Shown: piece after piece, positions 13,141 to 59,523 of the stretch
Layout of the letters: every line of letters begins with the position of its first letter
How positions within the stretch are numbered: the stretch's first letter is position 1
NCBI GenBank assembly: GCA_013397455.1
Contig: VYZB01000240.1
Coordinates: forward strand, 27,521 to 91,520
Length of the DNA stretch: 64,000 bases
Direction of reading: 5' to 3'
Source of the DNA: Crotophaga sulcirostris
Taxonomy: Eukaryota; Chordata; Aves; Cuculiformes; Crotophagidae
The notes under the pieces: model-generated
What the model saw: the letters and a program-made list of their open reading frames with translations, nothing else
The model's database searches: none
What the model was told of the DNA's origin: nothing
Made by a program: the position numbers and the translations under genes

Positions 13141-14055
13141 TCGTTTCCTTCTCCTCACACCCTGTCTCATTTTGCTTCCATTCCTATGCACAGAAAGACC
13201 GGTACAAGATCAGGAAAACCTCCAGTCTTCTCCAGCAGCCATTCCAGATCCAGACATTAAGGCTATCTGGGCAAATTGCTAAGGATTATTCCTCTCCACA
13301 ATCATCTCTTCATACTTTTGATGGGGTCTGGTAAGCCTGAAGCACCCTGACTCCACTGGCCTGCTCTCCAGACCATGCTTCTAGGTCAAGTGAGGAGGAG
13401 AAGCAAGCTCTCCCCAACAGCTGGGGAGGCAGGCAGTGTGGTGCCTCCCAGAAACAGCACCCTGCCTCCTCCTGCCAAGCAGCTGACCAGAGAAAATGTT
13501 GCATCTGAGCCAGGCAGCTTGTATTTATGCAGGCTTCCAGCTTTTGAAACTATAAAAATCTCACAGAGAATGAAAGGATCAGAAACCTACAGCTGCTGTA
13601 ATTCATATGCTCTTTGATACGCTTGGCTTCCCAGTGTATTTCTTCTCTGGGCTGCCAGCAGAGACTGCAGAGACCAAAGCAGCCTCTGACAGGCCAGTTC
13701 CCAGGTAGGGAGCTGGGGAATTTGGGGGTAACTGAAGGCTACCAATCCTTTTCCCCTTGCCCTCCCATGGTTGCTGGCAGTAGGCAGCAGAGCAGAGCCT
13801 AGAGGAAGACCAGGCAGCCTTCAAGGATGCAGTATGGGTGGATTTTTGTACAGGGTGCATGCATGCATAAGAAGTTAGGGGGTAGTTTTTGGAACAGGCA
13901 TTCTGAAATCCTGGTCTTGCAGGAGGTGCTTTACCTACTACTGAGCTGTTCAGCATCCCTTGTGTCCAGGAGCCGCTCAGCCTGCTCAGAGAGGAAGGAG
14001 TGGGACCACTAGAAAATGCTCGTCATGCAAGGAATGGACATAATGCCACAGCTCG

Positions 14056-14430
14056 TAGAACCATAGAATGGTTTGGGTTGGAAGGGACCTCAAAGCCCAT
14101 CCAGTTCCAACTCTCTGCCATGGGCAGGGACACCTCCCACTGGATCAGGGTGCTCAAACCTTCACCCAACCTGGCCTTGAACACCTCCAGGGATGGGGCA
14201 GCCACCACTTCTCGGGGCAACCTGTGCCAGGGCCTCCCCACACTCACAGGAAAACATTTCTTTCTAAGATCCCATCTAAACCTTCCTTCTTTCAGCTGAA
14301 AAGCCTTCCCCCTCATCCCATTCCTGCACTCCCTGAACAAGACCCCCTCCTCAGCTTTCCTGGAATGCCTTTCCATACTGGAAGGTTGCTATAAGGTTTC
14401 CCCAGAACCTTCTCTTCTCTAGGCTATGTT
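14056..14430 (-). mobile_element. CR1 LINE, 5'-truncated, minus strand
   Basis: The plus strand starts with the reverse complement of a CR1 3' end ('ACCATAGAATGGTTTGGGTTGG'), then 'CTCCCACTGGATCAGG' and 'AACACCTCCAGGGATGGGGC'. It ends near the reverse complement of the 'AGCCTAGAGAAGAGAAGG' block. On the minus strand the ORF2 tail is open from about 14376 to 14023 and contains KEGRFRWDLRKKCF and PSLEVFKARLGE, so this is a fairly young copy. Confidence 0.93.
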
Positions 14431-17400
14431 TGTTTGACTTCCCCTTCCAACTTTCAGACTTTGTTATGCCCTTGTTTAGTAGAATAACTGTCCCCTTAAT
14501 GACATTTTTTGTGGGGAGGGGAAATTATTTTGGTATTTTAATAGATATTGATAGTCAGCTCGGTAGAAAAGCATCATCTTTGCCATAGGCTGTAATTTAT
14601 TCTACCAAACAGGACTCTCTCCTCCTGTCTTCCTTTTTCCCACCTTTGCAGAGCAACAGGCTATTCTCACTCCTAGCCCTGCTGTTTTGTAGCCCTGTGT
14701 GCAGCTGATGTGGACAAGGACACAGTAATTTCGTCAGCCGGCTGAACTCTCCATGGAGCAGTGTCTGGCCATCATTCAGGGGCAGAGTGCTGTGCTCCCT
14801 GTCTTGGGTGTGGATGCAAATCCTCATTTGTCGGTGCTGGCCTAGGCTTTTCAACCCAAAACACAAGGTATGCAATCAGCTTTTAGACAGGACTCAGAGA
14901 TCTGAGACTGGGATCCACAATCTTCTTTGAATGTCAGCCTGTATCGCATCAAGACAGATCAGAAAGCATCAGGCTGGCTTATGAGGGCAGCAACCCCCTT
15001 GGCATAATCTATTCCCCTAGCCATGCATATGAATGCAAAGAGGAAATGTTATTTCTATGGTGACACATCCTTGAGAGCACCTAATCTGGATTTATTGAGG
15101 TCGTAAAACTGACTTAGCACTGCAGTACCTAGACTGCAGGATAAACAGAAGTCTTCTATTTATAGTGCTGTCAATCTGGCACCACTCACAAGCACTAAAA
15201 ATAAAACTTTTTGCAAGCAAGTTGAATTAATGGGTGCTCCTATGAACCAGCCCCTGATCCTGTTGGCGTTGGGAAGAAATTCTGCCCAACATTGCTGAAA
15301 AGCCACCTCTTTGGAGGGCTGGGCAGTAATATCCTCCCCAGCAGTGGCTCATCCTTTTCTTTCAGATTGTGTGACTATGGGGCCCCCCTCTTGGGGCCCC
15401 TCTGCAGTCCTGGGACATGAATTATTAGCCTTGATAATCAAATTACAAAAGCAAAGGAAAAAAGGGAGTTTGCTATGCTGGAGCTGCCTAACACATGCTT
15501 CTGGTCTCCCTGCATGGAGCTGGATGGATCCAAGCTAGCACAAGTCACACCCTCCTCTCCAGCTGAACTCGCATGAGCTTGCAACTGGAGTATCTTGCAG
15601 GGTGAATGCAATGGGAGGCAATTTGTTAACAGCTGTGCTGATGTTCAAGCTGCTGCTCTCCTTGCCCCTCTTACCCAGATCCAGCCTAGTCTGCCTTCGT
15701 TATCCACGTGGGCACCAGGTCCTCTTGCCCTGCTTTCAGCTGCCGGCACCAAAGCGAGGGGATGCAACAAGCACTGAGGAGCTGACCCGGCGGCGCATCA
15801 GAGCCAAACAACCCCCTCTTCGTTAGGCTCACACAGTCCAACGTGTAGTTATCAAGGGCTGAGTACCCCAGGAGAGTGGACCTGGATTAACTTGGAAAGT
15901 GATCTGCTTAAGCTGTAGATAAACCCACCATGGATCTTTCCCAGGACTGAAGTGAGCCTCGCCTTCCAACAATATTGAGCTTAACATCAAATGATTTTTT
16001 TACAATGAATCTCGGTACTGTTTAACTTGCCCATGTAAAACCTGTATTTCCAGTTGATAACAGTTTTTCCCCTTTAGCCCACCCAGCACAGCAGAAGGGT
16101 CCCAAACTCCATTCCCTCCTTGGGTTGTAATGTTGAATAGCCTCACAGCTTTCTTCTCTTTGATAGGAAAGCAAGGACCTGGATTTTATCATTAACACTT
16201 GTGGTTAAGATCATAAAGCTTCCTATTGTGATTTAACACCTGCCTGGCTTCCCTTACAATGCTTTCTGTATTTGTTATATTTTCAAAGGAGATCAGGCTC
16301 TCCTTCCCTGCAGTTTCCAGCTACTGGTGACTATGAACACCACCCCGTTGGATCGAGCTGCTCTTCACATGGCTCTGCTGGAGAGGCAGGGTGGGGTACA
16401 GGTGCCAAAGCCAGCCCTCCACCAGCTCTCCTCCCACCACGCCTGCCTTCAAGAAGTCACCTAAATGAGAAGAGCATCTCCTCATTGACCAGCTGCTAAC
16501 CAGGGCTGCCAGGAACCCTGCGGTCACTTTGATGTCCTCCTGCTGCAGGCAAGAACGCGGTGTTCAGCCCACACCAAAGCACTATGCTCTTAATCAGGCT
16601 GGCAGGGCTGTGTGGGAACAGCATCATCATGCTGGGAAGAGATGGGGAGCACTCAGTGGGGGGCTCTGCCAGGGCCCTGGTACACAGGACAAACCATGAG
16701 CTCCAAAACCCTGCATCTAGTGTGGACGTGTGTCCAAAAGAGTATGTCTTGCTCCAAGAAGGGATGTTTTCTCAAGTCATTATTTCTTCTCACAGGAAGC
16801 CTTTGTGGCAGAGCTGGCATGGCTTTAGTTAAGGTGTGGGCATCAGGTGTGGTGCAACAAGATGTGGAAGCAACGGGTGTTGATGTTCTCCTAAACTCAT
16901 GATCAGGTTTGTTGGCTTTTTGTTTTGGCTTTTTCTGCCAGTGGCTTGACTCAGTTTGGAGAGAGTAGATGCCAGACAGACACAGGGGAAAAATAATTCC
17001 CAAGTCTCCTATCCCAAATGGTGCACCACAAGAGTGCCATTAAGCATGATGGGGTCTGAGGGCGTGAAGCAGCTGCTGAAAATGCTGCTTTAGAGAACAG
17101 CTTTTGGGGGAGACAGGGCTTGGAGGGTACCAGCAGCAATATATCTACCTGCCTGATGGCCTTGTGGAAGGTCACAGAAAGCTAAACCACCCTAAATCCA
17201 AGGGGTAGCAGGTAGCAAAGGAGATGCAGCCCTTCAAAATGTTTCTAAGCTTTCCAGTGATTGTCACCGCCTGCCTGTGACGTTGTGTGGCTTCTGCCCT
17301 AGGAGCTGCCTCAAGCCCTCAGCCTGTCCTCTTAGCAATGAGTTACTGAGCCCTAGTTCACCCTGAGCAGTGCTTCATGCAGGATGTTTTGCTGACAGAG

Positions 17401-18254
17401 ATGCCTAAATTGCCTTACTTGGTGCCTGGGTCTACGCATCTTAAAGCAATCGGAAAAGAGTCATTGTAAAACTTGCAAGCAGCACAGCAAGTGCAGGCAA
17501 ACGGGATTTTAAGAGTTTTTGTGGGTTGCGGTGGCCAAATTTGTTTGACTGTGGGACTAGGATCCTCAGGGACACCATGTGAGCTTAAATATTGATGGGG
17601 TTAACACAGACATGGATGATAGCAGTAAAGCCTGAGGTGAGCTAAAGGCAGTGCTCTCAGACTGCAGCCACCCAGGGGGAGAGCTGCCTGCAGAAGTTTG
17701 GAGCCCAGAAACAGGGCAGTGCTTGCCAGGCAGGCAGGTGGCAGCTTGGGGACAATTGCACAGTTGGGCAGTCTTGGAGAAGAAAGCTGGAAGGCCAAGT
17801 AATTCCAGCACAGTAAGTGCAGTTAAGCACTGCCATATGGCTCCTTTTGCAGAGGGAGAAGCACACAGGGAATGAGCCATCCCACTGCTTTTCCTTTAAA
17901 ATGAACTTTCCAGTTCTTCCCCTGCAAGCACTGGAAAACCTTGTTGGCCTGTGGAGGTCAGAGAGGATGGCAAGGTACTCTCAGAGAGCCCTGGGAAATG
18001 GAGCCACAGGGAGTGCAAGAATTCCCCATGGATATTATATGGTCTTTTGTTCTGCCTCAGCTATGTCTAGGAAGAGGCTGGTGGCAAGAGGGAAAGGCAT
18101 TTCTCACAGTGGAGAACATGAAATGGATCAGAGAAGAAGGGGGAAAACAGTTTTATCAAGGGTGGGTGGTAAAACCCTGCTATGCCAGATGTGAAGTGGG
18201 GGAAGAGAAGTGGCTGCTGCTGCCCAAAGTGTTTTTTGTTACCTACTACATGAA
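14431..18254. other. Unique non-coding stretch
   Basis: No exon or named repeat is recognised. A cluster of binding-site words at 15110-15204 is listed separately. The 15700-15830 segment is moderately CpG-enriched. Open frames on both strands at 16.3-17.9 kb are short and overlapping. Confidence 0.45.
15110..15204. promoter_or_regulatory. Possible enhancer: MEF2 x2, forkhead, MAF/ARE words
   Basis: Two exact matches to the MEF2 consensus YTAWWWWTAR lie 30 bp apart: CTATTTATAG at 15156-15165 and CTAAAAATAA at 15195-15204. A forkhead word ATAAACA is at 15141-15147, and a MAF/ARE-like TGACTTAGCA at 15110-15119. The words are seen directly. Regulatory function is inference. Confidence 0.25.
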
Positions 18255-18638
18255 GTAAGGCTGAGAGAATTGAGTTTGTTCAGCCTTGAGAGGAGAAGGC
18301 TTAGGGGAGACCTTATTACCATGTACCAGTGCATAAAGGGTGTCTACCAAGAGGATGGAGAGTTTGTATTTACGAGGAGCCACAGGGAAAAGACAAGGGG
18401 TAATGGGTATCAGTTGCTCCTGGAGAGATTCTGGTTGGATTCCAGAAGAAAATTTTTCACCATGAGAACAGTTAAACATTGGAATAATCTCCCCAGGGAA
18501 GTGGTGGATTCCTCTACACTGAACACTTTAAAGGCTCAACTTGACAGGGTGCTGGACCATCTCATTTAAAATATAGGTCGCCTAAAAGGTTGGACCAGAT
18601 AATCCCTAAGGTCCTTTCCAACTTGGCATTCTGTGACC
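18255..18638 (+). mobile_element. Older CR1-like LINE with open ORF2 tail
   Basis: A diverged CR1-family 3' portion: 'GGCTGAGAGAATTGAGTTTG', 'TTCAGCCTTGAGAGGAGAAGG', then 'CCCCAGGGAAGTGGTGGATTC' and 'AAGGTCCTTTCCAACTTGGC'. It differs clearly from the young copies, for example TCTGTGAC in place of the ATTCTATG tail, which suggests another, older subfamily. The C-terminal part of ORF2 is open to its TAA at 18567-18569. It shows LRELSLFSLERRRLRGDL near the start, KFFTMRTVKHWNNLPREVV in the middle and HLI at the end, about 104 residues with no internal stop. It is 5'-truncated and so not autonomous. Confidence 0.9.
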
Positions 18639-19895
18639 TGTTAAAAACTATTGCAACCAGAAAAAACACAGACCTGAAGAGTTGTATTTCCTGGAAGGTT
18701 TTTGATACAAGGAGAGCAGGCAAATATTTCCCAGTAAGGGCAGGAAACAAAGACAGTAGGATTTTCTGCTTCATTTAATAAATTCATTGCTTTTGTCCCC
18801 AGTGTTCCAATTAGTTAGCCTGTCTTAACTCTTGCAGGTCCACTAACCTTTCTAGTATGGGGCTACAAATGCCAGCTAAAGTTTGCTTGAGTACATTCTC
18901 TTTGCAGATGGAGAACAAAAGGCAGCCTGCTCAGAAGCTGAGTGAAAATAAGAACCTGGAGAAGCAAGAGGCTGGGGAAACAGCGGCTTTTGTAAGTGAT
19001 TGGTCCTCAGAGATCACTTCTTAGCAGAGAGAAAGAGAGTGTTTGGGGGAAGCTCTTTTGGAGGAAGAGCATCCTTTGCTGAAGTAGGCTCAGAAGAAGG
19101 GATGGGAGATGTAGCAGAGAGACAGCCGGTGGGTGGGAGGAGGGAAGATGCAGCACTTCGCAGCAGGGCAGCAAGTAACGCACATGTTTGCAGGCTGGGA
19201 ATTTTGGGGGTTGAATGATGGAATTTGCTTATTTGTAGCAACTGAGATTTCACTGGCAGAGGAAGATTTCTTCTCCCCCATTTCAGGCCCCTTCCAGAAC
19301 CAAACTCCAGCATTGCTAACTGTCCCTAGCAATAGCTCGCTGTGTGTTTGTTTTGTTTTGTTTTGTTTTCAGAACCTCAGCTCTGAAATCATATAATTGC
19401 ATGAGAATATCTGCTTCAGTCTTTTCAAAACGGTCTTTTTCAAAAAGGTTTGTGACCAACCCTGCTGGTCAAGAAGGAAGCTTTATAACCGTGAAAGACC
19501 AGAAGACAGAAGGAAACAAACAACTGTGAACAATTAAACCACCATCCAACAAGCCACCTGTCTTCTGGGGGCATTCATGGTGTTTGAGCACACACGACAG
19601 GCAGGACTGCAACTCCAAACCACAGCTGCTAGAACTGCTGAAGGAAACGTTGCCATCTCAATTACTGTACACGAGCTACGAGAGGTAAAAGCTTGCCTCT
19701 GGACTCCTTCCCCTTCCTCACTTCAAAATCCACCATCCATGGTGCCTATAAAATCACTTTGTTTTATGGGAGCACTGGGAGCTGCAGGCACAACCTGGCT
19801 TTGTCAGCCCGTGTGCTGGAGGACAGCCCAGCTACTGTCTGGGTGGTGAAGGCCACCAGCAGCTCCTAGAGAGCCTGTAGCCTCTTCGCCTGCAT
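18639..19895. other. Unique non-coding stretch
   Basis: No gene is recognised. It contains a (TTTTG)n run at 19346-19370. Antisense open frames around 19014-19332 show no domain. Confidence 0.45.
19346..19370. repeat. (TTTTG)n microsatellite
   Basis: About five TTTTG units in a row. They could be read as the reverse complement of a degenerate A-rich tail, but no retroelement body adjoins them. Confidence 0.75.
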
Positions 19896-20098
19896 CAGGG
19901 GAGGTTTACATAGGATATTGGGAAAAAATTCTTTACTGAAAGGGCGGTAAAGCACTGGAACAGGCTGCCCAGGGAAGTGGTGGAGGTGCTCAAAGAATAT
20001 ATAGATGTGGTGCTTTGGGACATGGTTTAGCAGGCACAGTGATGTGCTAATGATTGGACTTTATGATCTTGGAGGTCTTTTTAATGATTCTTTGATTA
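19896..20098 (+). mobile_element. CR1 LINE 3' end, older subfamily
   Basis: About 200 bp containing 'GGGGAGGTTTACATAGGATA', 'TGGAACAGGCTGCCCAGGG', 'AAGTGGTGGA' and 'GGACATGGTTTAGCAGGCAC', ending in 'TTAATGATTCTTTGATTA'. This matches the CR1 branch whose 3' end reads GACTT(T/G)ATGATCTTGGAGGTCTTT. It is decayed and non-coding. Confidence 0.85.
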
Positions 20099-21448
20099 GT
20101 GGGGCTGGGGATCTCCTCCCCTCGTAGGGGAGTGTATTAATTACCCACCAAGTAAAAGTTGTGCTAATATCTTTTTCTCCCTCTGGGCTATGCTTTTCTC
20201 CTGGCCTGCTGTCACACCTGTGGTACTTGGTTCCTCTGAGCCACCCAAATGCCCATCTCTCCAACTTCCCATCCCCAAGCCTCCCCCTTGTTGCCTGTTG
20301 GTCCCTTCAAGCAGATCATGGGCTCACCATTTTCTGCTGGAGGTTCAGCTGTCCTGCACAACTTTCCTAGCCTGGCCAGTGTTTCATTACCAACATTGCC
20401 ACCTCCCAGCATCTCTGCTGTCAGCACTGTTCCCTGCCAGGTGCCTTTGCATTGCTGCAGCTCTCAAGGCAGGATTGGTGCCCATGCAGTTTTTCCTATG
20501 CAACCATCTCTGCCTTGAGCTCTCCTGCAGCATCACTTTGCATCGCACTCGCATGCAATTTCCAAGGCACGTAGCTCCTCTGCCACTGAGTGTGTCTTTT
20601 CCCTCTGGAATAATCATTTCTGAACACCTCTGAGGTGGAGCAATCCCTCCTGCAGCATGGGCTGGCGAGCAGGAGCATGCTTTGCCAAGGAGCTGCAGCA
20701 GGGGCAGTGGGGAATGTAGCCTCTCACTGCTGGCTGCCAACAGCCAGGCAAAGACTGCAGCCAGGCAGATACCAGGGGCCCAGGCTGAGAGTGACAAGAA
20801 CAATCATTAATAAATGGGCAAAGGCTGTGCAAATCCCAGCTTCAGGCCCAGAAGAAAGACTATTAAGAAATTACTTACCGGATACTATGATGGATGAGGA
20901 AAAAAAACCCAATGACCTAGCAGGCTTCAAACCAGTATTTGTGCTGCTAATTGTTTCTAAATTCCCCCAGCACAATGAACATGCACTTTTCCCTCACACA
21001 GCTCTCAGCTGAGAATCACTCAAACACGCACACACATGGGTTGAATGCAAACAGCATCACTTGCCTGTGTGCTCATCTATGCACATTGCTGGCTGGACAC
21101 TGCTGCTGGGCACGACCACCTCTGCCTGTCTCTCTCCGATGCTCAGTGATGTTCCCAACCCTGGCAGCTGTTTTGTTGTCTGCTTGCCCCAGCCTGGGAG
21201 TCTGCCAGGGTATGGTTTCCATTCTGCCTCCCTGCTAGTGCTGCAGTCAGGGCATTGATCAGCCCTGTCTGGATGTGCCTTTCGTTTTAGGTTATTTCCC
21301 CTGGAAATACATGCTCTCCTCTTTAACCTTGTGCTTGGCCTCTGCAGGTGTTGTTGCAGATCAGCAATGCCTTGGGTTTGCTGGGGACGTTTGTTATTCA
21401 CCGATGACCACTTCAACTGACTTCTTTCCTTATCAGCCCAAGCCTCTT
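20099..21448. other. Unique non-coding stretch
   Basis: No gene is recognised. A 147-codon open frame (20190-20633 +) and a 138-codon frame (20387-20803 -) overlap in antisense. Neither has recognisable domains, and both look like chance frames in C/T-rich DNA. A pair of splice-like signals on the minus strand near 20880 is listed under findings. Confidence 0.4.
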
Positions 21449-34254: not shown

Positions 34255-34701
34255 GTGAGTCCAGAGGAGGCCACAAAGATGATGAGAGGGTTGGAGCACC
34301 TCCCATAGGATGACAGGCTGAGAGAGTTGGGGTTGTTCAGCCTGGAGAAGAGAAGGCTTGGGGAAAGCCTTACAGCAACCTCCAGTACCTAAAGGAGCCT
34401 GCAGGAAAGCTGGGGAGGGTCTTTTATCAGGGAGTGCAGGGATAGGATGAGAGGGAATGGTTTTCAGCTGAAAGAGGAGAGATTGAGATGAGATCTTAGG
34501 AAGAAATGTTTTCCTGCGAGGGTGGTGAGGCCCTGGCCCAGATTGCCCAGAGAAGTTGTGGCTGCCCCATCCCTGGAGGTGTTCAAGGCCAGGTTGGATG
34601 GGGCTTTGAGCAACCTGATGCACTGGGAGGTGTCCTTGCCCATGGCAGGGGGGGTGGAACTGATGGGCTTTGCATCCCAAACCATTCTATGATTCTATGA
34701 T
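34255..34701 (+). mobile_element. CR1 LINE, 5'-truncated, young copy
   Basis: A CR1 3' portion from 'GTCCAGAGGAGGCCAC' through 'TTGGGGTTGTTCAGCCTGG', 'AGGAAAGCTGGGGAGGG', 'TAGGAAGAAATGTTTTCC' and 'CCATCCCTGGAGGTGTTCAAGG' to two clean ATTCTATG-type units ('ATTCTATGATTCTATGATA'). It serves as the in-window reference for the deleted copies at 57.5 and 59.1 kb. Scattered frameshifts break ORF2. Confidence 0.95.
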
Positions 34702-35684
34702 AAGTCTCAGTAACTCATATCCCCAGTCAGTGCTGTGACCTCTCCTGAACTCCTCACCTCACAGCATATCATGTCTGTAGAGAACAGAACGTATGTGGAG
34801 GAATGCACCAAGTCAGGATGTCTCTAGGACAGTGACAAGTCCAGCACCACTGGACTGGTGTCCCGGTGCTTTTCAGCCCAGTTGGCACGCTGAGTGTGTG
34901 TGAAGAAGGCACTTGGATGGACAATAGCTGTAAATCCTGCACCTCCCACTTCTGCTGCCTGCTTTACGTGTCTCGGTGAGAAGGTGGACAATTTCAAGGC
35001 TAGCTGGGGTGTGTAGAGAGCCCTCTTTTGAGTTCCAAGGAAGGAGAAATGAAGTCTGTGTCACATCAGAACTGGGAGTAGCAGAAGCTAGAGCTGAAGC
35101 AGCCACTTGTGTGGCAACAACTGCAATATGAAGCAGTAGAGGTGTTCGTGGGTGGGTTTGGGTGGAGTGGGTCTTCTGGGAAAGTCAGCGACGCTGCAGC
35201 ACATGTGATGTTGGAGGAAGCAGAGAGAGAGGACATTAATGGGTACAGACTTGCTTGCAGAGCAAATGTGGGGATTTTGGAGCAGAGAACTTCCTGCTGA
35301 TGTTCTGCTTCTGCTGGGTGTAACTGCACATGCCTGCTCTCTGTAAAAAAAAGGAAACTGGTGAGAAGAACCCTGCCTGGTGCTTTGCAGACCAACTCAG
35401 CGGGGTCTGGGTTTGGCTCAAGACACTGGCCATCGTTGGAGTCTCTTCTTACCCAGGGTTCCCTGGGCTATTGGCACTGGGAGCATACACTCACTGAAGT
35501 GGTTTCCTGCAGATGTACTGGGCAGGCCAGGCTTGCTTCGCTTCCGAGATCAGGGCACTGAACTCATCATGGTTGAGAGCCTCAGCTAAATCAGGGCAGT
35601 TTTCTTCTCCATGGGTTATGAAGCACCATGCTTCAGCCTTTGCCTAAGTATGTTGAAAGGGGAGGAAGGCAACCCTTTGGGAAA

Positions 35685-38390: not shown

Positions 38391-38741
38391 GCTTGGGGAG
38401 ACCTTATAGCAACATTCCAGTACCTGAAGGGGGACTACAGGAAAGCTGGGGAGCGACTTTTTACAAGGGCATGGAGTGATAGGACAAGGGGGAATGGCTT
38501 TAAATTGGAAGGGGGAAGATTTAGATTAGATATTAGGAAGAAATTCTTCACGATGAGAATGTTGAGGTACTGGTACAGGTTGCCCAGGGAAGTTGTGAAT
38601 GTCCCATCCCTGGAGGTGTTCAAGGCCAGGTTGAATGGGGTCTTGAGCAGCCTGGGAGGTGTCCCTGCCCATGGCAGGGGATTGGAACTGGATGGGCTTT
38701 GAGGTCCCTTCCAACCCAAACCGTTCTATGATTCTGTGATT
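38391..38741 (+). mobile_element. CR1 LINE, 5'-truncated
   Basis: A CR1 3' portion starting near 'GCTTGGGGAGACCTTATAGC'. It passes through 'GGCTTTAAATTGGAAGGGGG', 'TAGGAAGAAATTCTTCACG' and 'CCCATCCCTGGAGGTGTTC' and ends 'CCGTTCTATGATTCTGTGAT'. ORF2 tail residues are readable at 38505-38702, with RLDIRKKFFTMRM and PSLEVFKARLNG. A small deletion removes the usual 'CTGATCCAGT' just before 'GGGAGGTGTCC'. Confidence 0.94.
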
Positions 38742-40722: not shown

Positions 40723-41452
40723 CCTTGCTGAGAGCTTCCTTTGCAGCTGAAGTCTTTTATAGGAAGGGCTTCAACTCTGTGAGGAAATCAGCTGGAACAG
40801 GTCTGGCAGGATAGCTCTCCAAGTGAGAGCTCTTCTTGCAGAATACCAATGATTTGCATCCAAAATAAAGTGGCTAGAAGTAGCTATTTCAGGAGCACTC
40901 CCTGCACAGGGCAGGAGCGGGGAGGTGGAAGGGAGTAAAATATAAAACAACACCTGCCTTGGAAAAGAGGAGCGATCTGAAAGGTTTGAAGACAGATCTT
41001 CATGCTAGCTCGCCTTTGTGTCAGAATAGCTGGGGCTTCGTTTTCATTTGTTGCTTTATTTTTTTTATTTGCTTTATTGCCCTGCCTCTGATATGGGGAC
41101 AGACTGCTCTCCCCATATCCCAAAATCAGATGTATTTGGGACCCCCTTGGCAAGCACTGAGGAAGGCTCTGGGAAGGGCTGGGATGGATAAGAAAGAGAA
41201 AAATCACTGTTTGCAGAAGGCTGCTGGTTTTGCAAGCTGTCTGTGCAGGCGCGGAGGCTCTCCCAGCCATGGGGCCCTGTCCCCATGCTTTATGCTCTTA
41301 CTGCTGGTCGCCAGAAGCAATTAACTAGAAAATGGAGTGAGGACAAAAGACTAGCATGAATTACAGCTTCACAGGAGGATGCCCCAAACCCTTCCATCCC
41401 CCAGCCTGAAGGACTTGGTGCTGGGTTTACCTGGTACCTGGACCACTCACCA

Positions 41453-42079
41453 GCTCCCTGGCACTGTGGCACCAGGAGATGCCACACTGTGGGCTGTGCA
41501 GCAGCAGTGCTGGTTCCTGCAGAGGGCTGGTGGGCCACCGGTGTTATAGGCACATAAGCCCAGTTTGCCAGAGGGCTCCAGCCTTCGTTGCTAGTCTTGG
41601 CTGGCTCATTCAAGGAGGAGCCGCGCTGGACGGTTTCTCTGCTCTGAGATGGGCACCGTGCCACACGCTGAGCCGTCTCGCTGCCAGGAGCAGCAGGTCC
41701 TGGCAGGGAATGGGACAGGACTGCTTGCCTAGCAAGGAGCTTCCCATCAGCCAGGCACTGTGGCAGGCTCCAAGCACCCCTCCTCAAACGCCGGCTGCCG
41801 TATGTGCCTTTTCCCTCCCCGGGCGGAGGCTGGCGATGTGAGAAATCACGCCTCGGGCATGCTGTTCCCGAGGAGCGTGGGAGAAGGTTTTGCAGACAGC
41901 AAGGCAGCACCCTGAGGCACGTTTCCAGCTCCCCACAGTCAGCTTCCCAGTGATGCTGATCCCCAGGTTCCAGCTGTGCCGTTGTACCGACACCACCAGC
42001 TCGGTCAGCACACCACGTGTGCTTGTTGCACAGAGGGTCAGCAAATGCAAACCGCAGCTCCATCTCGCCTCTCCCTTGC
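41453..42079 (-). CDS. Putative exon-like open block (unrecognised)
   Basis: The longest open frame outside a repeat lies on the minus strand and runs 288 codons from 42156 to 41290. Within it, a strong splice-acceptor pattern (a long pyrimidine tract, then CTATCTAG) ends at 42080. Seventeen bases later an ATG at 42063-42061 has a strong context (G at -3 and at +4). Near 41453 the frame crosses GAGCTGGTGAGTGG, a donor-like site, with further GT donors just after. The predicted peptide starts MELRFAFADPLCNKH, has scattered cysteines and is Ser/Pro/Arg-rich. It has no domain, signal or membrane segment I know. The block overlaps a CpG-enriched patch, and high GC alone lengthens random frames. 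This is a hypothesis, not a gene call. Confidence 0.15.
41600..41890. promoter_or_regulatory. CpG-enriched patch
   Basis: By hand I count about 19 CpG in roughly 300 bp, with GC near 60% and an observed/expected ratio around 0.6. This is the densest large CpG cluster in the window. It could be a weak island, an exon effect or a regulatory element. No core promoter motif is clear. Confidence 0.25.
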
Positions 42080-45000
42080 CTAGATAGGAAAAAAAGAGAC
42101 ACAGAAAACTGCTGAAAAATTCCTGCTTTGCAGGGGAATTGCCATGAGACATCCATTCATGCCAGGAGAGCACTTGGACGCGGCAGCCAGGAGTGCTTTA
42201 AACAAGCCGAGGTGATGCCCAGATCTACACTGGCCATCTGCTTCCTGCAGGACAGGGTATCAGTCCAGGGCGCTGAAAAACAGCACCATAACAAGCCCTT
42301 TGGTTCTGGTTATCAGCTGGTGACAAGGGCTGCTGGCAGGAGGGACGCTGGGATTTAAAAGCCGTGATCCAAACCCTGCTCTGCTCTTTGTTTCTGGGTC
42401 ACATACAAGACCATACAGAGCTTATTTTCAGAGTCTGGCTTAGAAGTGGCTGAAACCTGGTGAATCTATACCTGGGACAGCAAGAGATCAAGGCAGTCAC
42501 AGCTCCCAAAATAAACTGCTGTGGCCACAACCCAATTTGCCCATGTGGCTACCATGGATGATAACATGCTGGACCGTCAGCCAGGCTGCGTCGCTGGTCC
42601 TGGCTGAAACACAGCCCTTGGGACTGGCAGCATCCAATATTTCTGTTTTCTGTGATTCCATGCACTGGTTTGGAAAATCAGCATGGCACCATGCAGTTGC
42701 TGTCTGTTCCTTACACAGAAGGTGAGCGTGATCCCTTCTTTGACTTGACCCTGGAGTGGCCCGTTGACCGGACCAATGCAGAATGATGCTCCCATCCTGC
42801 TCCTGCACACTGTGATGTGCTCTCTGCACAGATTGTGTATTTGTGAGGGAGTGGCTGACTCACATGGCTGGAGAGAGACGTTTCATTGCAGTGCTCTGCA
42901 GGAGCCTGCTATTAAATCCTATTCTAACAGTGCGCTGGTCACAGTGCATTAAGTAACAAGGTCACCTGGGCATCTCCTGCTGGGGACCTTGCTGGAGCAC
43001 AGCCATCATGCGGGTGTACCTTGTAGCTTTTTATGAGCTCAGCTTTGGTGCACAGATAAATTTTGGTCTCATGTCTCCTCCCAGGGACAGCAGTAGCCAT
43101 GGACATCACTCTGCCTCTTCATCAGCTGCGTTGCTCCACGGTGAGGAGCTGTGGGGACCCTCTGGCTGGGGATGTGCATGTGCAGGGACATCCTCCTCCA
43201 CTCGTCACACTCCTAGTGAGCTGGCCAGGCTCCTCCTGTACTAGCTGTGACTTCCTTGGGTAAGATTTTTTCCAACCTTGAGGGCTTGGAAGTTGACTGC
43301 TGAAAGTCTGGGTAAGGTGCAAGTTAGGAAAGCAGCTTTTAAAGTGTTTTGTTGATGCGTTTACCCTGTTTTTGTCAAGCCTGGGGGAGTTGATATGCAA
43401 CTGAAAACAGTTTCAGTTGGTGTTAAGTTCCTCAAGGGCTGCTCAAGGCAGGAATCTTCAGGAAAGGCAATCTAAATTAACTTCCAAATTAGAGTAATTA
43501 AACCAAATGAAGTCTTTGCTGGGAAGAACCCCTGGATGGATGATGCACTTAGCTCAGGGTAATTGTCCTTGGGCTGCTCTCAGCTGCGGTGGGGATGAGA
43601 TGCTTTGCCACTGTCACCAAAAATTTCACCCTCCTTTCCATTGGCTGTAAGGTAGCAGCACGTGGCTGGGACATGGTCACCTGTTCTATTTTGTGACTCC
43701 TACCTGTGTCTGTCTGGTCTCACTCCGAATTCTTGGTGCTAATTTGATTTGGAGTCCTGACACTGGAAACTTCAAAGTGTTGATTTCTTTACTCATCAAA
43801 AACAGAAGCCAGCTTTGCAATCTCAGAACTTCACACAGGACACATCTGCAAGCTTACCCGGAGCAAAGTGCTAAATGGGGCAAGAACTGCCAATTTTGCA
43901 ACAATTATCAAGAAATACTGAATTGAAATATTCCCTAACGACAGGGGAAAAGTCAGATCAAAGCAGTTGTTGCTGCTCCATGACCTGGAAGTCACATGTG
44001 GCATTCTCTCCTTGGGGATGTTTCTGTTCCTCTGACCAGTTCCTGACCTTTCTCAAAGAGGTCCTCAACCCCAGCCAAGAGGGAAAGGCACCTTCCCATG
44101 CCTCCCTTCTTCTTCTAGTCTTTGCCAATGTTGCTCATAAATTGTCACTGTATGAAGCAGAGGGATTTGCTTGTGTTTCGGTGCCACGCACTGGCACCCC
44201 AGCCCACCAGGAGCCCGGATGTGCTGTGTTTTATCAGCCCTCTGCATATTTGATGTTCTTGGCCAAGTTGCCCAGAGCCTTAGGGAGGGACAGTGTGCAG
44301 GAGACTAAAGCTCCCTGCCTGCTAAGCGTTGGCCATCAAAGTGGGCTTTTGCTCTTAGATTAACTGTTGCCTTCTTTTAAGGCTTGGAATTGACTTATTT
44401 TGGAAAAAGCCGTAGCTGCAGAGAGTAGCTGGTGGCAGCAGAGGGTCAGGTCCCCAGCTGGAGGAGCTCATCCTATTGAACTGCTTCAGCCCAGATCCTC
44501 TGGCCTTGTGAAGGCATAGGAGCAAATGGCCAAGAATCTTGCAATTCTGCTACTGACAACCCACCTGTGGGACTCAGAAGCAAGGTTGGTGGGCATTGTC
44601 CTGTTTTCAGCCTGGCTGCAGCAATGGAGTAGGAAGAGGGTGAGTTTCTCCTCAGTGGATAAACATCAAGCCAAGCACAAACCCCCTAAGGGCTCTTGAT
44701 GAGCCTTCAGGTATCTGAGGAGCCTTCAGCTATGACTGGGGCACGAGGAGAGGTGAAAGCAATGCCTAATTCCTGCATGGCAGCCATGGACACCCTGGCA
44801 TCATCTGAGGCTCCTTTCAGAGCGATCATCACTCCATGGATCTGAAAGGAAAGCTTTCAACATGCTCCTCTTGCAGAGAAGGTCAAAGAGGGGCAGGAGA
44901 AATAACCTGGTGCATAGTTGCTTTGGCTTTGAAGCTTCTGGCTTTTTTGGAAAACTCTCAGTAGATCTGGTGGAGTGATTTTGCAGAACAGAAAATGGAT

Positions 45001-49992: not shown

Positions 49993-50282
49993 AAAGCTGG
50001 GGAGGGGCTCAAGGAGTGCCAGGGATGGGAAAAAGAGGAATGGTTTTAAGCTGAAAGAGGGGAGATTAGGATGAGATATTAGGTATTTGGTACAGGGAGG
50101 GTGGTGAGACACTGGCACAGGTTGCCCAGAGAAGTGGTGGCTGCCCCATCCCTGGAGGTGTTCAAGGCCAGGTTGGATGAAGCTCTGAGCAGCCTGAAGG
50201 TGTCCCTGCCCATGACAGGGGGGTTGGAACTGAATGATCTCTAAAAATCCTTCCGATCCAAACCATTCTGTGATTCTGTGAT
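49993..50282 (+). mobile_element. CR1 LINE, 5'-truncated
   Basis: Starts near 'AAAGCTGGGGAGGGGCTCAAG'. It continues through 'TTTTAAGCTGAAAGAGGGGAG', 'CCCATCCCTGGAGGTGTTC' and 'GGGGGGTTGGAACTGAATG' to 'CCATTCTGTGATTCTGTGATC'. The usual 'AGGAAGAAATTCTTCCC' block is rearranged to 'AGGTATTTGGTACAGGGAGG', which breaks ORF2. Confidence 0.93.
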
Positions 50283-53200
50283 CTTTTAGGGAGTGCAGTC
50301 AAGGCTTTGGATGGCAGACAGGCTCAGGCAGTTGCTGCTCTTCAGTCTTTATAGAGTTAGAAGCCTTGTAGGAAGCTTCTTCAAAGGGTGATGTTATCTC
50401 TTTTCAAACAGATGGCCCTCTGCCACCAGATCTTTCCAGAGAACAGGGTGCCCACTGCACAATCACAGGTCAGGTGGAGCAAGAATACATGGTCTGGAGC
50501 AAGGATGTCTGTGTCCTTTTGGATTTCACCACTGTGGTCGGATTCTTTGATATCTCATAAGGACTGATTCATGCCTGGGCCTTTCTTGTGGCAGGGGTTT
50601 TCATAACAGCTTTCTCTGATGTATAATAAGAGCTGAGTGAGTGATGAATTCTTCCCTCACTCGGGATATTTATAGTATTTTTCTTTCTTCCCGAGCGAGT
50701 CACCTATTTTCACAAGACTCGTAGGCGCTTCGTGTCAGTGAGACTTCAGCTCCTCTGCCAAATCTAGGGGAGACTGGCCAAAGGGTTCAAAAGTTTCTCA
50801 AGACTGGGATGGTGGGCTGGCTGGGGACATGTGAGGTCCCCATTGCACAAGCCTTGCATCTTAACAAGTCAAGCTAAAAGCCATGAAACTACTCAGTTCA
50901 CCCTTTATTTCTGGAGGTACCAAGGGTCACATTTCCCATCTGCTTCTCCACAGATGAGCAGGCTAAGATTTTGTTTCTCAGTTTGCATGGGAGCTGGGTT
51001 CTCAGTATTTTGCTGTGGAAGCTGGGTTTCTATTGGTATCATCTCCTCCAGGGTGCATCAGCTCTGACCACACCAAGTGGGATGAGATCCAAAGCATCTG
51101 GTGTGGGTTTATTACAGCTTTCCTGCTTACACAGAATGGATGTGGACCAGCATGATTTTCTTTATACTGAGGGCTTATTATGCACTCTGGGTTAGCAAGT
51201 AGAACTACCTGACTACTTCTGTCCCCAAAATATGTGTCTGGATACCAGTTTGCACCTGGAGGGCTCAAGAAAGAGGAGAAGATCACCAGCTACGTTGCCA
51301 AGATGTCCATCCATCTCCCCTAAGCCACTGTTTTGTAGTCTCATGTACTGAGCTGGAGCCACAGGAATTAATGCTTGCACAACAGAGGTTTGAGCCCAAG
51401 GGAGGTCTCCTGTCTAGGCAGGAAAAATTGTCAGGTTTTTAAATACTTCATAGCTATTTGCAACTTTCTCCAAGGAGAATGTTGTGTCTTCTGCTTCTCC
51501 AGTGAATACAGACTGCCATCTCCCATTATGGGAATAATATAAAATAAAATACAATAAAACTGAGAGTAAAGCTGTATTCTGAGGGCTTTTTCATCTTTTC
51601 CTAATCCACTGCTTCTGTAATATTTTTCCCTGTGTTTTCCCTTTTTTGGGGGCGGAGTGGGGGATGATTTGTTTGTTGTTGTTTTTTCTTATACTACCAG
51701 AGGAAAAGCAGAACATTTTGGATGCTTTTTTAATTTTATTTTATTTGCGGATGCTTTTTTTGCTCCCTTCACTCTGGCTCACATGTCTCCCCAGCATCTC
51801 TCCCTCTGCAGATGCTGCGGCTGTGATGGTGCTGCCTGTGCTCTGCATCCCCCACCCCTGTGCTGGTCTGTGGCCCAGGTCAACCCCCACATCCCCCCTC
51901 TCTCTGCCTGGGGGTGAAGGGGGGGGGCTGCCTTGTACCATCCTCCGGCAGCTCTGTGCACTTGTGTCCTCCTCCTCTTCCCACAGCCTGATTTATTTGG
52001 TTTATCTTTCCCTCTAACAGCCACCCTTCCCTGTGCCTGATTGCAGTGACCTCTGGTCCCTGCATAGCTCAAATTCTTCTGCGGGGGCCAGGGGCCACCT
52101 GGAAGGGCTTCCTCCTTCCCTGGGCCACTCCAGATGAGATCAAAAGGGTCCCTCGGCTGTATCCATCCTCGCTGTATCCATCCATGCTGACATCCAGTCC
52201 TGTGCTTTCCCTGCCCAAAGTGCTTGCCCTGGGCAAAGGCCAGTTGGCTGGAGATTGATGTGGGTCTCCCGAGAGGATGCTCTGTTTTCGCGCGAGTGCT
52301 CCACGCAGTAGGGAAAGCAACAGCAGGGTCTGCCCCTGCCCTGGGGACATGCTGCTCCTCCTGTCCAGCCTAACTAAAAAACTTGTCTCCTTTGCTCCCT
52401 GAAGCTAGGGAGTTGTGGTGCTGGACACCCCTGGGGCTGGCAGGTGTGATGGGGTTAGGGAGAGGCCAAGACCCTGACACCAAAGCAGTAATCTCCATCT
52501 GATCAGTCTCCTCTTTCCCTTTCCAGCCCCCTGTGCAGGATCTAAGTGGGTGCAGTGATGCTGAACATGGGGATCTCACCATATCAAGTATTACTCCTGG
52601 CAGAGCCAGGGCCACTGAGACAGCAAGGGTCTGGACAATATCCCAAACTCCTGGGAGCAGACCTGCTTATCAACATGTGTTGGCAGCCTGGGCAGGATCC
52701 TTCTCCCACCCTACCCAACAGGGCAGGGTGAAGAAGCCACACTTCTGACACATTCCCTTCAGTCACAGCTCAGCCCCGTGTTATGAAAAGGAACCATTCT
52801 GGAGCTGGAGCAGACCCAGCACCCTTGGGGTGGAGGTCACATCCAGCTGGCTGTCTCCTCTCCACCCCTGCAGCGAGTGGCTGTGCAGCCCCTGCAACAT
52901 TGATTCCTGCATCCCATGTGGCAGTGAGGATTATCTCTCCCTGGCATCTCCCTGTCCAGCTCCGTGAGCTCAGGCACATTCCTGAGAAAGGATCAGCAAG
53001 AGCTCAGGCTGAGGCTGAGCCAGGGATGAATCAGACCCTCCTGTTCCTGCTTCCCCTTCCCTCCAAGGATCCCAGTGCGAGGTCAGTGGCAGTGGCTGAT
53101 GGACTGAGGGTGAGCAAGGAGGGAAGCTCATCTCTGCATTGTTTCTGGGAGTTACACTTTGCTGGGAGTTAAGTCTCCAAGATAAGAGAGTGAAATGGTT

Positions 53201-54893: not shown

Positions 54894-55878
54894 AGAAAAT
54901 GTCTGCACATCCCAGAGAGAAAACATCCCCCCGTATCAGCCCATAAAGATGTAACATTTTACCAAGTGATGCTGGAAATCTTCGCTCTGAGAATCAGTCT
55001 CCTGTGCAGTTGGGAAGAAGAGGCTCTTGCTGGAGGGGTTTAGAACAAGAATGTGACACGAAACACTTGAAATGCTGGAAATGGAATCTGAGGTTTTAAA
55101 TTTTACTTGAAAATTTAACATTTGAAATAACTGGCAGCCAGGTTATGAGATGACCCAGCCTACGTGACTGATACCCAGTGATGATTGATAGTGAACGGTG
55201 GTGCCAGACCTTTCACCGCATTTAATTACATATCAGCAAATACCCTGAAGTCATTAATTACTGCCTGACATGTTTTGGAGGCTCAGGGAAACACACACAA
55301 CATCCCCCCCCCTCCTTTTTCTTTCCTAGGAAGGAATCTTTGTATATAATTGGGGATGATTGAGTCAATGTTATGAGTACACCATCAACTGAGAGTTGTG
55401 ACTGCACACAGGTTTTTAAACAGGTGTGACACACACACACGTGCACACTCACACCCCTGCACACCCCCACCAGATCCACTCCTACCTGCCTGCACCCTGC
55501 GCTGCGCTGGAGCTGGAGATAGGAGAGAGGAGCTCCTGAGAAGCACTGGCTCTAAAGCTGTCTGGTTTCCCAGACTGTGAGGCATTTCTGCCTTTGTTTT
55601 CTTTTAATAGAGCTGATTTTTTTTGGAAGGGATATGAGAATCATCAGACTGATTCAACCATGCTTCTGTTTTGGATGCTGATGCAACAGCCCTTGTGATG
55701 GGGATGAAACACCTCCCAGCTCCGCTTGGCTGTCCTGCTGCCCTTCCATGGTGAGGGAGGTGGGAAGGGGAGCGATGGTGGCTTCTCAGGGATGGACAGT
55801 GCTGAGTTTTCCATTCCCCTGGCACAGTTAGCCTCCAGCAGCAGGGAGACCAGTTGAGGGGATGTAAACATACCTACG
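54894..55878. other. Unique stretch with CA/C-rich repeats
   Basis: No gene. It contains a C9-10 run near 55304-55312 and the CA-rich microsatellite at 55426-55470. Confidence 0.5.
55426..55470. repeat. (CA)n-rich interrupted microsatellite
   Basis: Runs of ACACAC broken by GTG, CT and CCC. Alternating purine-pyrimidine DNA of this kind can adopt a Z form. Confidence 0.8.
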
Positions 55879-56136
55879 GTGGGAAGGGACAACTCTCCAT
55901 GGCCAACTCTTGGTGGGACAAACGCTCTGTGAAAACAACTCTCTGCAGCCAACTCTCCACAGGAACAACTCTCTGCAGGGAGCCATTACAGTTAGACTCA
56001 GGCTTATGGTTAGGTTTAGGCTTAGGGTTGAGGTAGGGGTAGAGTTGTCCTTGCTTAGAGTTGTCCCTGTGAAGAGGTGTCACACAGAGAGTTGGTAGTA
56101 GAGAGTAGGCTGTGGAGAGCTGTCCTAGACCCCACC
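55879..56136. repeat. Large palindrome with telomere-like core
   Basis: The left arm (55879-55977) has six diverged units centred on CAACTCT, at 55890, 55904, 55919 (as CAAACGCTCT), 55936, 55950 and 55966. The right arm (56041-56136) has six inverted counterparts centred on AGAGTTG, at 56041, 56057, 56073, 56088, 56102 and 56116, with similar 14-17 bp spacing. The arms also match outward through GGTGGG. The spacer (55991-56044) reads as nine consecutive hexamers of GTTAGG type, four of them close to exact. No transposase, recognisable target-site duplication or named family is seen. Alternatives are a degenerate fold-back element, a decayed interstitial telomeric insertion or a rearranged minisatellite. 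Confidence 0.75.
55991..56044 (+). repeat. Degenerate TTAGGG-like hexamers
   Basis: In a fixed six-base frame the units are GTTAGA, CTCAGG, CTTATG, GTTAGG, TTTAGG, CTTAGG, GTTGAG, GTAGGG and GTAGAG. The period is exact but the units are diverged from (GTTAGG)n, which suits an old interstitial telomeric tract. It sits exactly between the palindrome arms. Confidence 0.6.
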
Positions 56137-57527
56137 TACAGCAAGGTGGCACAGGCATTTCGGCAAAGCCAGAACAGCTCTATTGGAACCAAGAAGCTTT
56201 GACCAAGTCCTGATGCTCTTTCTGTCTTTCTCCTGTCTCATTGTGGGAATAGGTGCCACGTGGCTTTCATTATGTTTCGGTTGATGCGGTTCTTGGTGCT
56301 GTAACTGTGGATTTTCTTGGTTTCACTCACGTGTATTTAAGTTTGTATTTTTGCCTCCTCCTCCCAGCCTGCGCTGAGATCTGGTAACCAGCATGGTCTG
56401 AAAAATGTGATTGTGATTGATACTGTTGCCTGGAGCCCATGTGGATCTGAGATTCTGCCAGTGTTTTGTTTTATGAGTTGATGTCTTTTTAATTCTTCCA
56501 AAGTCAGGACTTGGTGCTTTCCCTCAAAGAAGTTAGGCTTAGCTTGAACATTCTAGGATTAAAAATGAATTTCTCACTCTGTCCCACACTGTTCTTGTCT
56601 TGCAGAACTTGCTTCATCCAGCCTGGCTTGTGGATTTCACTGCAGCCCAGCCAGGCTCTGCAAGGAACCTGGGGTTAAATTCCCTCCTTTTACTTCCCAT
56701 TTCTCCTGATGACTGTGAGAGTCACATCTCAGCTGAGTTGAAAGAGAAGCATCAGAGCAGGGAAGGGACTCCCCTCTCCCTCCTGTCCTCAAGAGCCAGA
56801 GCTTGAGACGTGCCCTCAAGCTGCTGTAAATGATCTTCCATGCCTTGATAGTCCCCAGGAAAGAGAGAGCATCCCAGAACAAGACCACTGGCCAACAGGT
56901 CAACCCCAAAATCATTTGGAAAACTTAACACACAAGCCCTGGAGCAAATCATCAGAAACTGTCTTCTGTGGCAGGTCAAAAGGGGGATAACAAGGGGCCA
57001 AAGCTGCAGGGGACAGGATTTAAATGACTTGCTGTTTCTGTTACAGCTCGTACATGTCCAGAGCTTGTTTGTGAGCAATTAAGCTGGTTGTCTTAAGCAG
57101 AGCCACAGAAAGCATGATGAAGTAATTAATAGTAATTAAAAGCATGTTATCTACGGGCATGTTGTCTGTGCCCATTCTGCACAGCCCTGTGCTGTCAGCT
57201 GCCCTGCACCAGCTTGCTCAAGCAAGGGCTAAAGCTGAGGGGCAAGAGCCTGGGTGAGCTCTGCTTGCCCTCTCTATCAGCCCAGGAGGTCCCTGGGGAA
57301 GCCTCCCCACTGCCACCAGATGCCCAGAATGGCAGAAGTGGCAGGACTCTGCTCCCATCTGCTCCTGACCCAGTAGTGCCCAGGGAAGGAGGCAAGAGGC
57401 GCCCACCTGAGCACGCGTGAGCCTGACCCTATTTTGACGAAGTATGGTCTTTCCTAATCAAATTGCAAATTTCCACTAGTTTTAGCTCGTAATTGCACCA
57501 AGCAACTTGATTGCCAACCATATACTG
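56137..57527. other. Unique non-coding stretch
   Basis: No gene. Contains the paired tandem dimers at 57121-57171. Antisense frames at 56.6-57.1 kb lack domains. Confidence 0.45.
57121..57171. repeat. Two adjacent tandem dimers (10 bp and 15 bp)
   Basis: AGTAATTAAT / AGTAATTAAA (57121-57130, 57131-57140) is followed after one base by GCATGTTATCTACGG / GCATGTTGTCTGTGC (57142-57156, 57157-57171). The first pair holds two TAATTA homeodomain cores. The second holds two CATG-centred words that each fit nine of ten positions of a p53-family half-site, with a 5 bp spacer. Confidence 0.75.
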
Positions 57528-57882
57528 GGCTGCATCAAAAGAAGTGTTGGGATTGTTCATCCTGGAGAAGAGAAGGCTCTGGGAAGACCTTAAAGGGAGC
57601 CTACAGGAAAGCTGAGGAGGGGCTCTTGATCAGGGAGTACAGGGATAGGACAAAGGGCAATGGTTTTAGGCTGAAAGAGGGGAGATTGAGATTAGGTATT
57701 AGGAGGAAATTTGTTATTGTGAGAGTGGTGAGACACTGGCATATGTTGCCCAGAGAACACTCTGGAGATGTTCAAGGCCATGTTTGACGGGGCTTTCAGC
57801 AAGCTGGGTAGGTGTCCTTGCCAGTTGGAACTGGATGGTCTTTGAGGTCCCTTCCAACCCGAACTATTCTATGATTCTATGA
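57528..57882 (+). mobile_element. CR1 LINE with internal deletions
   Basis: Starts 'GGGCTGCATCAAAAGAAGTG' but jumps at about 57547 straight to 'TTGGGATTGTTCATCCTGG', skipping about 185 bp that the copy at 2.7 kb retains. A second gap near 57757 removes about 16 bp before 'CTGGAGATGTTCAAGG'. The 3' end is good: 'CTATTCTATGATTCTATGATC'. Confidence 0.93.
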
Positions 57883-59050
57883 TCAACTTAGCTAGGCTCC
57901 ATCTTTGCAAAGCTCCCTCTCTGTCCTGTTGTGCTCAGTCAAGACATAACCCTTAGACCTTTTTTGCCATTAATGTGAGATCTGGCTAAAGGGGCGGTTT
58001 CAAGCGGGGAGAATAAACCAACCTCACTCTCATCCTAGTCCCACCTCTTCTAATGACAGATGTCGAGGATGGGGAGGAAAGAAAACCTCCGTGTGGGTTG
58101 GTTTGTTTTTCTGAGTGATCCAATCAACATCCAAGTCAAAACAGGACAAGAAAAAAAACAGGGCTCAGTGGGGATGGAGTGAGGAATTCAGGTTTAGCTT
58201 AACCCCTCTTCGCTTTGAATAGAAACAGATCATTCTCTTTAGAGACAGAGAGAGGGAAAAGAAGCCTGAGATTTTTAGAATTTTCCCTGTATTATTTTCT
58301 GAATCAGACTTTAAGCTGCCAATGTTCCTTTAGCCAAAAAGGGCATCTTTTTAATCGGATTTACATTTTCAGCTCTAACCACTGCTGGTCCCCCTTGCCT
58401 TCAGCTATGCTTTGCCAGCAGGAGCAGACTTTTCATGAACTGCCCTTAGCAATGTCCTAGGAGCTCACATCAAGAGGCAAGATGCACTGGAGTCTCTGTT
58501 TCCTACTTCCAAACACCTTCCTCTTTCTTTTCAACATATCCCCCTGCTGCAAAGAGTAGCTGAGCTGTAGCTCTTCAATTATTTTAGTGCCTTTTCCCCA
58601 TTTAAGCATTGCAGGACATTATACAGAACAGAGAACTGAATCTACCTCTCAGAGTTGCACCACACAATGTAAGGCTCCCAGGCATTTTCCTGCAGTCCAA
58701 AATCTCCTGACATTTCATATATTGAATCTGTTTATCAAAGCTGTTCTTCTGACATGATACTTTTTTTTTCACAAGCTGCATATCTGTCCTTGCTGGGGCT
58801 TCTCAAAAAAAAAAAAGTGTCAGGGCTTCTGGCTTATGCCAGCACAAGGTTTCTTGGTGAGTGAGTCACTGCATTTGCAAGGCTGGAGCTGGAAGTTGGA
58901 TTTCTATGCCATTCCTGGGGACTTGCCTAAAGAGAAAAGCTAGCCCAGAATATGCAAGGATGCAAAATAATAGAGGTTTAGGGTGAATGTGGGGAGAAAA
59001 GCCCCTTTAGCAATTGCATCCACAGTGGATTGCATTAAACAAGCAGGTAA
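57883..59050. other. Unique non-coding stretch
   Basis: No gene. Holds a T run near 58762-58770 and an A run near 58806-58817. Confidence 0.5.
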
Positions 59051-59523
59051 CCAGCAGGTCAAGGGAGGTGATTCTGACCCTCTGCTGTGCTCTCGTGAGA
59101 CCTCACTTGGAGTCCTGCATTCAGTTCTGGAATCCTCAGCCCAGGAAGGACATGGAGCTGTTAGAGTGTGTCCAGAGGAAGCCACAAAGATGATCTGAGG
59201 GCTCCAGGAAAGCTGGGGAGGGGCTCTTGATCAGGGAGTGCAGGGATGGGATGAGGGGGAATGGTTTTCAGCTGAAAGAGGGGAGATTGAGACGAGATCT
59301 TAGGAAGAAATGTTTTCCTGTGAGGGTGGTGAGGCCCTGGCACAGGCTGCCCAGAGCAGTGGTGGCTGCCCCATCCCTGGAGGTGTTCAAGGCCAGGTTG
59401 GATGGGGCTTTGAGCCCCCTGATCCAGTGGGAGGTGTCCCTGCCCATGGCAGGGGGGTTGGAACTGGGTGGACTTTAAGGTCCCTTCCAAGGCAAACCAA
59501 TCTATGTTTCTATGATTCTATGA
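59051..59523 (+). mobile_element. CR1 LINE, young, one internal deletion
   Basis: From 'CCAGCAGGTCAAGGGAGGTG' through 'TGAGACCTCACTTGGAGTCC' and 'CCAGAGGAAGCCACAAAGATG' to a complete end, 'TATGTTTCTATGATTCTATGA'. At about 59205 the sequence passes from 'TGATCTGAGGGCTCC' directly to 'AGGAAAGCTGGGG', lacking about 105 bp present in the 34.3 kb copy. The ORF2 tail is open at 59227-59478, with RRDLRKKCFPVRV and PSLEVFKARLDG. Confidence 0.95.

Follow-up and report, generated by a model that had tools for sequence, protein, structure and literature searches.

The segment at positions 55879-56136 of the window, the latter being the whole 64,000-nucleotide stretch of DNA analysed here, consists of two oppositely oriented runs of CAACTCT-type units on either side of a telomere-like core. 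Such an arrangement raises the question of its origin: a local rearrangement, a structure with a present function, or the copy of a mobile element.

Structure of the palindrome

The arms at 55879-56136 form a genuine inverted repeat. Alignment of the left arm with the reverse complement of the right arm gave a score of 31 (match 1, mismatch -1), compared to a mean of 12.4 (sd 2.4, largest 24) for dinucleotide shuffles of the arms, none of which reached 31 in 1000 trials. Among 2000 random placements in the window, a single one reached the arm score, at 55875, which is the feature itself. Chance low complexity as the source of the arms was ruled out by these two tests, and the shuffles bear out the initial annotation, which had described the order as exceeding a low-complexity patch. 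The predicted single-strand DNA fold of the feature (-52.3 kcal/mol) also beat the shuffles (mean -38.35 kcal/mol, z -3.4, one shuffle in 200 as good). This fold would favour a present role of the element as a hotspot of recombination or replication or as a regulatory cruciform, but the arms of the window copy are only about 72% alike across their aligned part (0.725), and we consider such a role very improbable.

The whole element covers 253 bp on the forward strand, from 55880 to 56132, so that the limits first given were at most 4 bp from its ends. The family profile described below matched it over positions 1-244 of 244 with 208.8 bits, a score obtained on one of the 31 sequences from which this profile was built. 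The left terminus (55880-55889, forward strand) is composed of the 7 bp end TGGGAAG followed by GGA, and showed no difference from the family left end over 18 positions. The left arm (55890-55979, forward strand) contains six tandem CAACTCT-headed units, starting at 55890, 55904, 55920, 55936, 55950, and 55966; the unit at 55920 is degenerate (AAACGCT). An asymmetric joint, GAGCCATTAC, at 55980-55989 on the forward strand, links the left arm and the core, and is common to the family in the core profile of 29 copies. The telomere-like core occupies 55990-56039 on the forward strand. About nine GTTAGG-type hexamers had been attributed to it; we counted approximately eight degenerate ones, with one exact TTAGGG. 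The right arm (56040-56122, reverse strand) is made of six inverted units, read as AGAGTTG on the forward strand, whose starts on the reverse strand are at 56122, 56108, 56094, 56079, 56063, and 56047. Six units per arm, as first described, were thus present on each strand, with a spacing of 14-16 bp in both arms. The right terminus (56123-56132, reverse strand) reads TCC then TAGACCC, or GGGTCTA then GGA in reverse complement, and showed one difference in 18 positions from the family right end, located within the last arm unit. Both termini were delimited with an end profile of 32 copies. Owing to the divergence of the units, Tandem Repeats Finder picked up only parts of the arms, and a repeat finder reported no more than short pieces.

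Immediately outside the ends, ACCTACGG at 55872-55879 (55871-55879 in a 9 bp reading) and ACCTACAG at 56134-56141 (56133-56141 in a 9 bp reading), both on the forward strand, agree at seven of eight positions. The arms had initially been seen to match outward through GGTGGG. Part of this match (ACCTAC at 55872 and 56134) corresponds to the target-site duplication and not to the arm.

A dispersed family flanked by target-site duplications

The host genome (1.06 Gb in 1548 contigs) was searched with the segment 55850-56160. At least 51 matches were found, 40 of 81 candidates having been scored; the main ones were 67-84% identical, and a few short matches of 30-47 bases exceeded this range. A second search with another family member, L039, gave at least 52 matches (40 of 70 candidates scored), corresponding to approximately 24 new places. 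Further copies with the same arms, which the initial annotation had proposed to look for, are therefore numerous, diverged, and dispersed in the host genome. The 39 fetched loci share a common plan with the window copy: the left end TGGGAAGGGACAACTCTC and a series of CAACTCT-headed units, followed by the asymmetric joint GGGAGCCATTA and a run of degenerate TTAGGG-type hexamers (core profile of 29 copies), then an inverted run of units and the right end GAGAGTTGTCCTAGACCC (end profile of 32 copies for both ends). Since the joint is present on one side only, the direction of the core relative to it is constant. A few loci, such as L053 and L068, retain only part of the plan. From the 40 sequences, L053, L062, L063, and L068 were left out as they had no usable end pair, leaving 36. 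The end profile leaves out L032, L035, L055, and L066, and the family profile (31 copies) leaves out L032, L035, L054, L055, and L066.

As in fold-back elements, the inverted arms are made of a variable number of short tandem repeats. The mean number of units was 4.2 in the left arm (sd 2.2) and 4.0 in the right arm (sd 1.7) for 30 of 34 copies, the four others having no recognised core; these are script counts which miss diverged units (five of the six were seen in the window left arm). Left and right unit numbers were uncorrelated across copies (0.06). In 43 copies, the outermost spacing was 14 bp for 30 left arms and 29 right arms, the script preferring 14 for the right arm when values were tied. 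At L068 (G000:C138:18747-20372) expansion of the left-arm units has given an array resembling a minisatellite, with dozens of units, and what is left of the joint and core lies at its end. Further family matches lie near this locus, from 16528 to 20109 of G000:C138, spanning approximately 3.6 kb, of which the part read was 18747-20372.

The family profile detected all 16 loci fetched later, which had first been located through their similarity to one of the family members. It gave no match in 20 random 10 kb stretches (200,000 bases, 5,572 of them N), taken at random positions on contigs already yielding a match, nor in the same stretches reversed. This corresponds to a density below about 15 copies per Mb at 95%.

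Flanking target-site duplications, another property that the initial annotation had suggested looking for, were significant family-wide in two sets of copies. In the first set of 35 copies the summed best flank match was 212, compared to a mean of 131 (sd 6.4, largest 156) when the right flanks were permuted among copies; none of 20,000 permutations reached the observed value. L054 was left out of this set, its right flank being duplicated with that of L062, and L032 and L035 were kept despite misplaced right ends. The second set comprised 13 separately found copies, namely 13 of the 16 loci drawn from the approximately 24 new places, the left ends of L098, L105, and L106 being doubtful. Their summed match was 71 against a permuted mean of 49.9 (sd 4.0), again with none in 20,000.

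With the ends fixed at TGGG...ACCC, the flank identity in 32 copies (L054, L032, L035, and L066 left out) was 0.44 at length 8 and 0.50 at length 9, compared to 0.23-0.29 at lengths 5-7 and 10-12. The 13 newer copies showed 0.45 at length 8 and 0.32 at length 9. For the combined copies the values were 0.44 and 0.45, and the two lengths are not separated. Exact 9 bp duplications were present at L070 (CATGAGGGC), L065 (TGTGCTTAT), and L100 (TCAAGGAGA), and L043 (CTGTCATC) and L091 (CTTACCAA) were other clear single cases; in several copies an exact duplication requires a shift of the end by one base. A convincing duplication was missing in 10 of the 32 copies, as expected for old copies or misplaced ends. 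As a match at six of eight positions occurs in 4% of mismatched flank pairs, the weaker single duplications are no proof by themselves.

The copies thus have fixed ends and target-site duplications at dispersed sites, as fold-back transposons do. Their flanks are unrelated, apart from common pieces of 26-155 bp and from the pair formed by L054 (G000:C1170:1611660-1613165) and L062 (G000:C1015:911123-912493). Approximately 510 bases of the right flanks of these two loci could be aligned, with 84% identity, and to judge from this alignment the element was apparently carried along in a segmental duplication. The flank of L062 on the side opposite to the duplicated one is GC-rich.

Origin and age of the element

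The initial annotation had listed, among possible origins, a fold-back transposon with a telomeric spacer and the repair of a break with telomeric filler inside an inverted minisatellite. Copies that share ends, arms, and core are dispersed in the genome and flanked by 8-9 bp duplications, which points to the former, and the window palindrome is very probably an old copy of a non-autonomous fold-back DNA transposon. A local origin, whether as an inverted minisatellite or through repair of a break with telomeric filler, would agree with the short tandem arrays formed by the units and with the telomere-like core. Against it, unrelated sites carry the same full arrangement, with its core and asymmetric joint, and target-site duplications flank the copies. 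The comparison of the arms points in the same direction. In the 31 copies with both arms delimited, the identity was 0.759 between arms of the same copy and 0.768 between arms of different copies, and 8504 of 10,000 permutations were as high as the same-copy value. We give a local origin almost no credence. As arms of the same copy are no closer than those of different copies, the palindrome most likely arrived with the inserted element rather than being made or repaired in place. Homogenisation of the arms within copies was ruled out by the same comparison.

We propose the following scheme for the fold-back transposon. A transposase supplied in trans from elsewhere would bind the short ends and the units of the arms, the latter being putative binding sites. 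The element would be excised and inserted into a staggered break, giving rise to the 8-9 bp target-site duplication. The number of units differs between copies, the probable cause being slippage or unequal exchange among them. The telomere-like core would have been present in the ancestral element and carried along as a passive spacer. Some of the short interstitial telomere-like tracts of a bird-like genome would then have been brought in by a fold-back transposon, and would not be scars of chromosome fusion or of break repair. The copies with duplications could serve as clean presence/absence markers.

The age of the family was estimated from 43 copies (33 and 10 from the two sets; L032, L035, L066, L098, L105, and L106 were left out, the last three for their doubtful left ends). 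Over 36 end positions, their mean difference from the family ends was 11.7% (Jukes-Cantor distance 0.127), with 115 transitions and 66 transversions, a divergence which is a lower bound because the copies were chosen for recognisable ends. The window copy differs at only one of the 36 positions. The neutral avian rate is near 2e-9 per site per year, which suggests a rough family age of some 60 million years.

Candidate transposase and related elements

Provided that the element is a fold-back transposon, our analysis leans slightly towards mobilisation by a transposase of the Mutator superfamily (Phantom/Foldback-like). The duplications agree with the approximately 9 bp (8-10) of this superfamily, in that their length shows a peak at 8-9 bp, taken as a single class. 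Against a Mutator transposase, a search of the host genome for the MULE domain (PF10551) found no match, although an autonomous copy may have been lost in such an old family. The hAT dimerisation domain gave six matches, showing that the domain search was able to detect transposase-related domains in this genome. Neither a transposase nor a coding form was found for the family. Because no MULE domain was found and the hAT domain is present, the Mutator assignment is drawn entirely from the layout and the duplication length.

The layout closely resembles that of Tm1, an element of the Mutator/Foldback family in root-knot nematodes (Meloidogyne). Tm1 is described with asymmetric 7 bp ends, a 3 bp GGA, a variable number of 13-15 bp units, and duplications of 8-10 bp, mostly 9 bp, and some of its copies code for a Phantom-type Mutator transposase (PMC3169594). 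Asymmetric 7 bp ends, GGA, units of approximately 14 bp in inverted arms, and short MITE-like copies are common to both, with TGGGAAG or GGGTCTA then GGA, 14-16 bp units, and 8-9 bp duplications in the present family. Tm1 differs by its unit sequence and by its histone-hairpin and transposase-coding forms, whereas the present family has a telomere-like core and yielded no coding form. As the letters of the units differ, the likeness is one of plan, with no demonstrated descent. The common plan supports the recurrence of fold-back arms with approximately 14 bp units in distant animals.

It is also possible, with a lower probability, that a transposase of hAT or P type, producing 8 bp duplications, mobilised the same fold-back element. 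Duplications of 8 bp would be in keeping with either type. The flank identity at 8 equals that at 9 in the combined copies and is higher at 8 in the newer ones, and hAT domains occur in the host genome, as mentioned above. The ends TGGG.. and GGGTC.., however, are unlike those usual in hAT elements, the duplications of L070 and L100 are exact over 9 bp, and the end layout is that of Tm1. Galileo of Drosophila, a member of the P superfamily, has fold-back arms too, but a P-type transposase; its duplications are of 7 bp and its size is larger. Fold-back arms are reported to have arisen in the P superfamily with Galileo (PMC3169594, PMC4079207), a point in favour of a P-type transposase.

Tetris, a foldback element of Drosophila virilis, likewise has internal tandem repeats in its arms and 8-10 bp duplications and is apparently non-autonomous (PMC4079207). 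Its units are of approximately 220 bp compared to 14-16 bp here, and its arm repeats are reported to seed tandem arrays, an amplification that the array at L068 resembles (PMC4079207). In a more specific scenario, which we regard as rather improbable, a fold-back family of Mutator/Phantom type, a superfamily whose MULE domain is at present not detected in the host genome, formerly resided in a bird lineage and had captured a telomere-repeat module, always oriented in the same way. Were it true, the module may have aided movement or spread short telomere-like sites through the chromosomes.

A further question is whether the family already has a name. The chicken repeat Hitchcock, reportedly named by Wicker et al. 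in 2005, is fold-back-like and contains telomere-like hexamers. It is presumably a candidate name for the window family, and the initial statement that no named avian repeat has this layout may be wrong. This identity, which is compatible with the fold-back transposon, has in our view an even chance of being correct. In chicken it is classified as of "undefined" type with 27,033 copies representing 0.4182% of the genome (PMC4992247). With a chicken genome taken as 1.05 Gb, these figures would give a mean copy of approximately 160 bp, a fitting size. PMC4992247 alone, among the literature matches listed, names Hitchcock as a chicken repeat, and the passages concerned give no description of its structure. 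The chicken density predicts approximately five copies per 200 kb, compared to none in the 20 random stretches, so that the density in chicken appears to be above that of the host genome sample; the chicken counts may include fragments and the host may be another bird. The zero argues mildly against an equal abundance with Hitchcock and not against identity. A literature text search with three strings of unit letters returned no title on avian repeats among the matches listed.

Other searches of the window were less informative. No match was found in the window with Rfam, nor in the phage records searched, and a promoter/terminator scan was not relevant to a vertebrate genome. A loose pattern of three units occurred in 23 stretches of viral contigs, and once in the window. 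Comparison of 10 of the 42 window open reading frames of at least 110 amino acids with Pfam gave one match below threshold: the 288-amino-acid frame at 41290-42156 on the reverse strand matched a thyroglobulin type-1 domain with 17.1 bits (cut-off 20.6), and may be an exon or a chance match. The window also contains many copies, in both orientations, of a second dispersed repeat, which we take to be CR1-like and which suggests an avian host or a close relative, for example at 2757-3219, 14050-14425, 34259-34711, 38431-38740, 50020-50284, 57535-57883, and 59051-59516.
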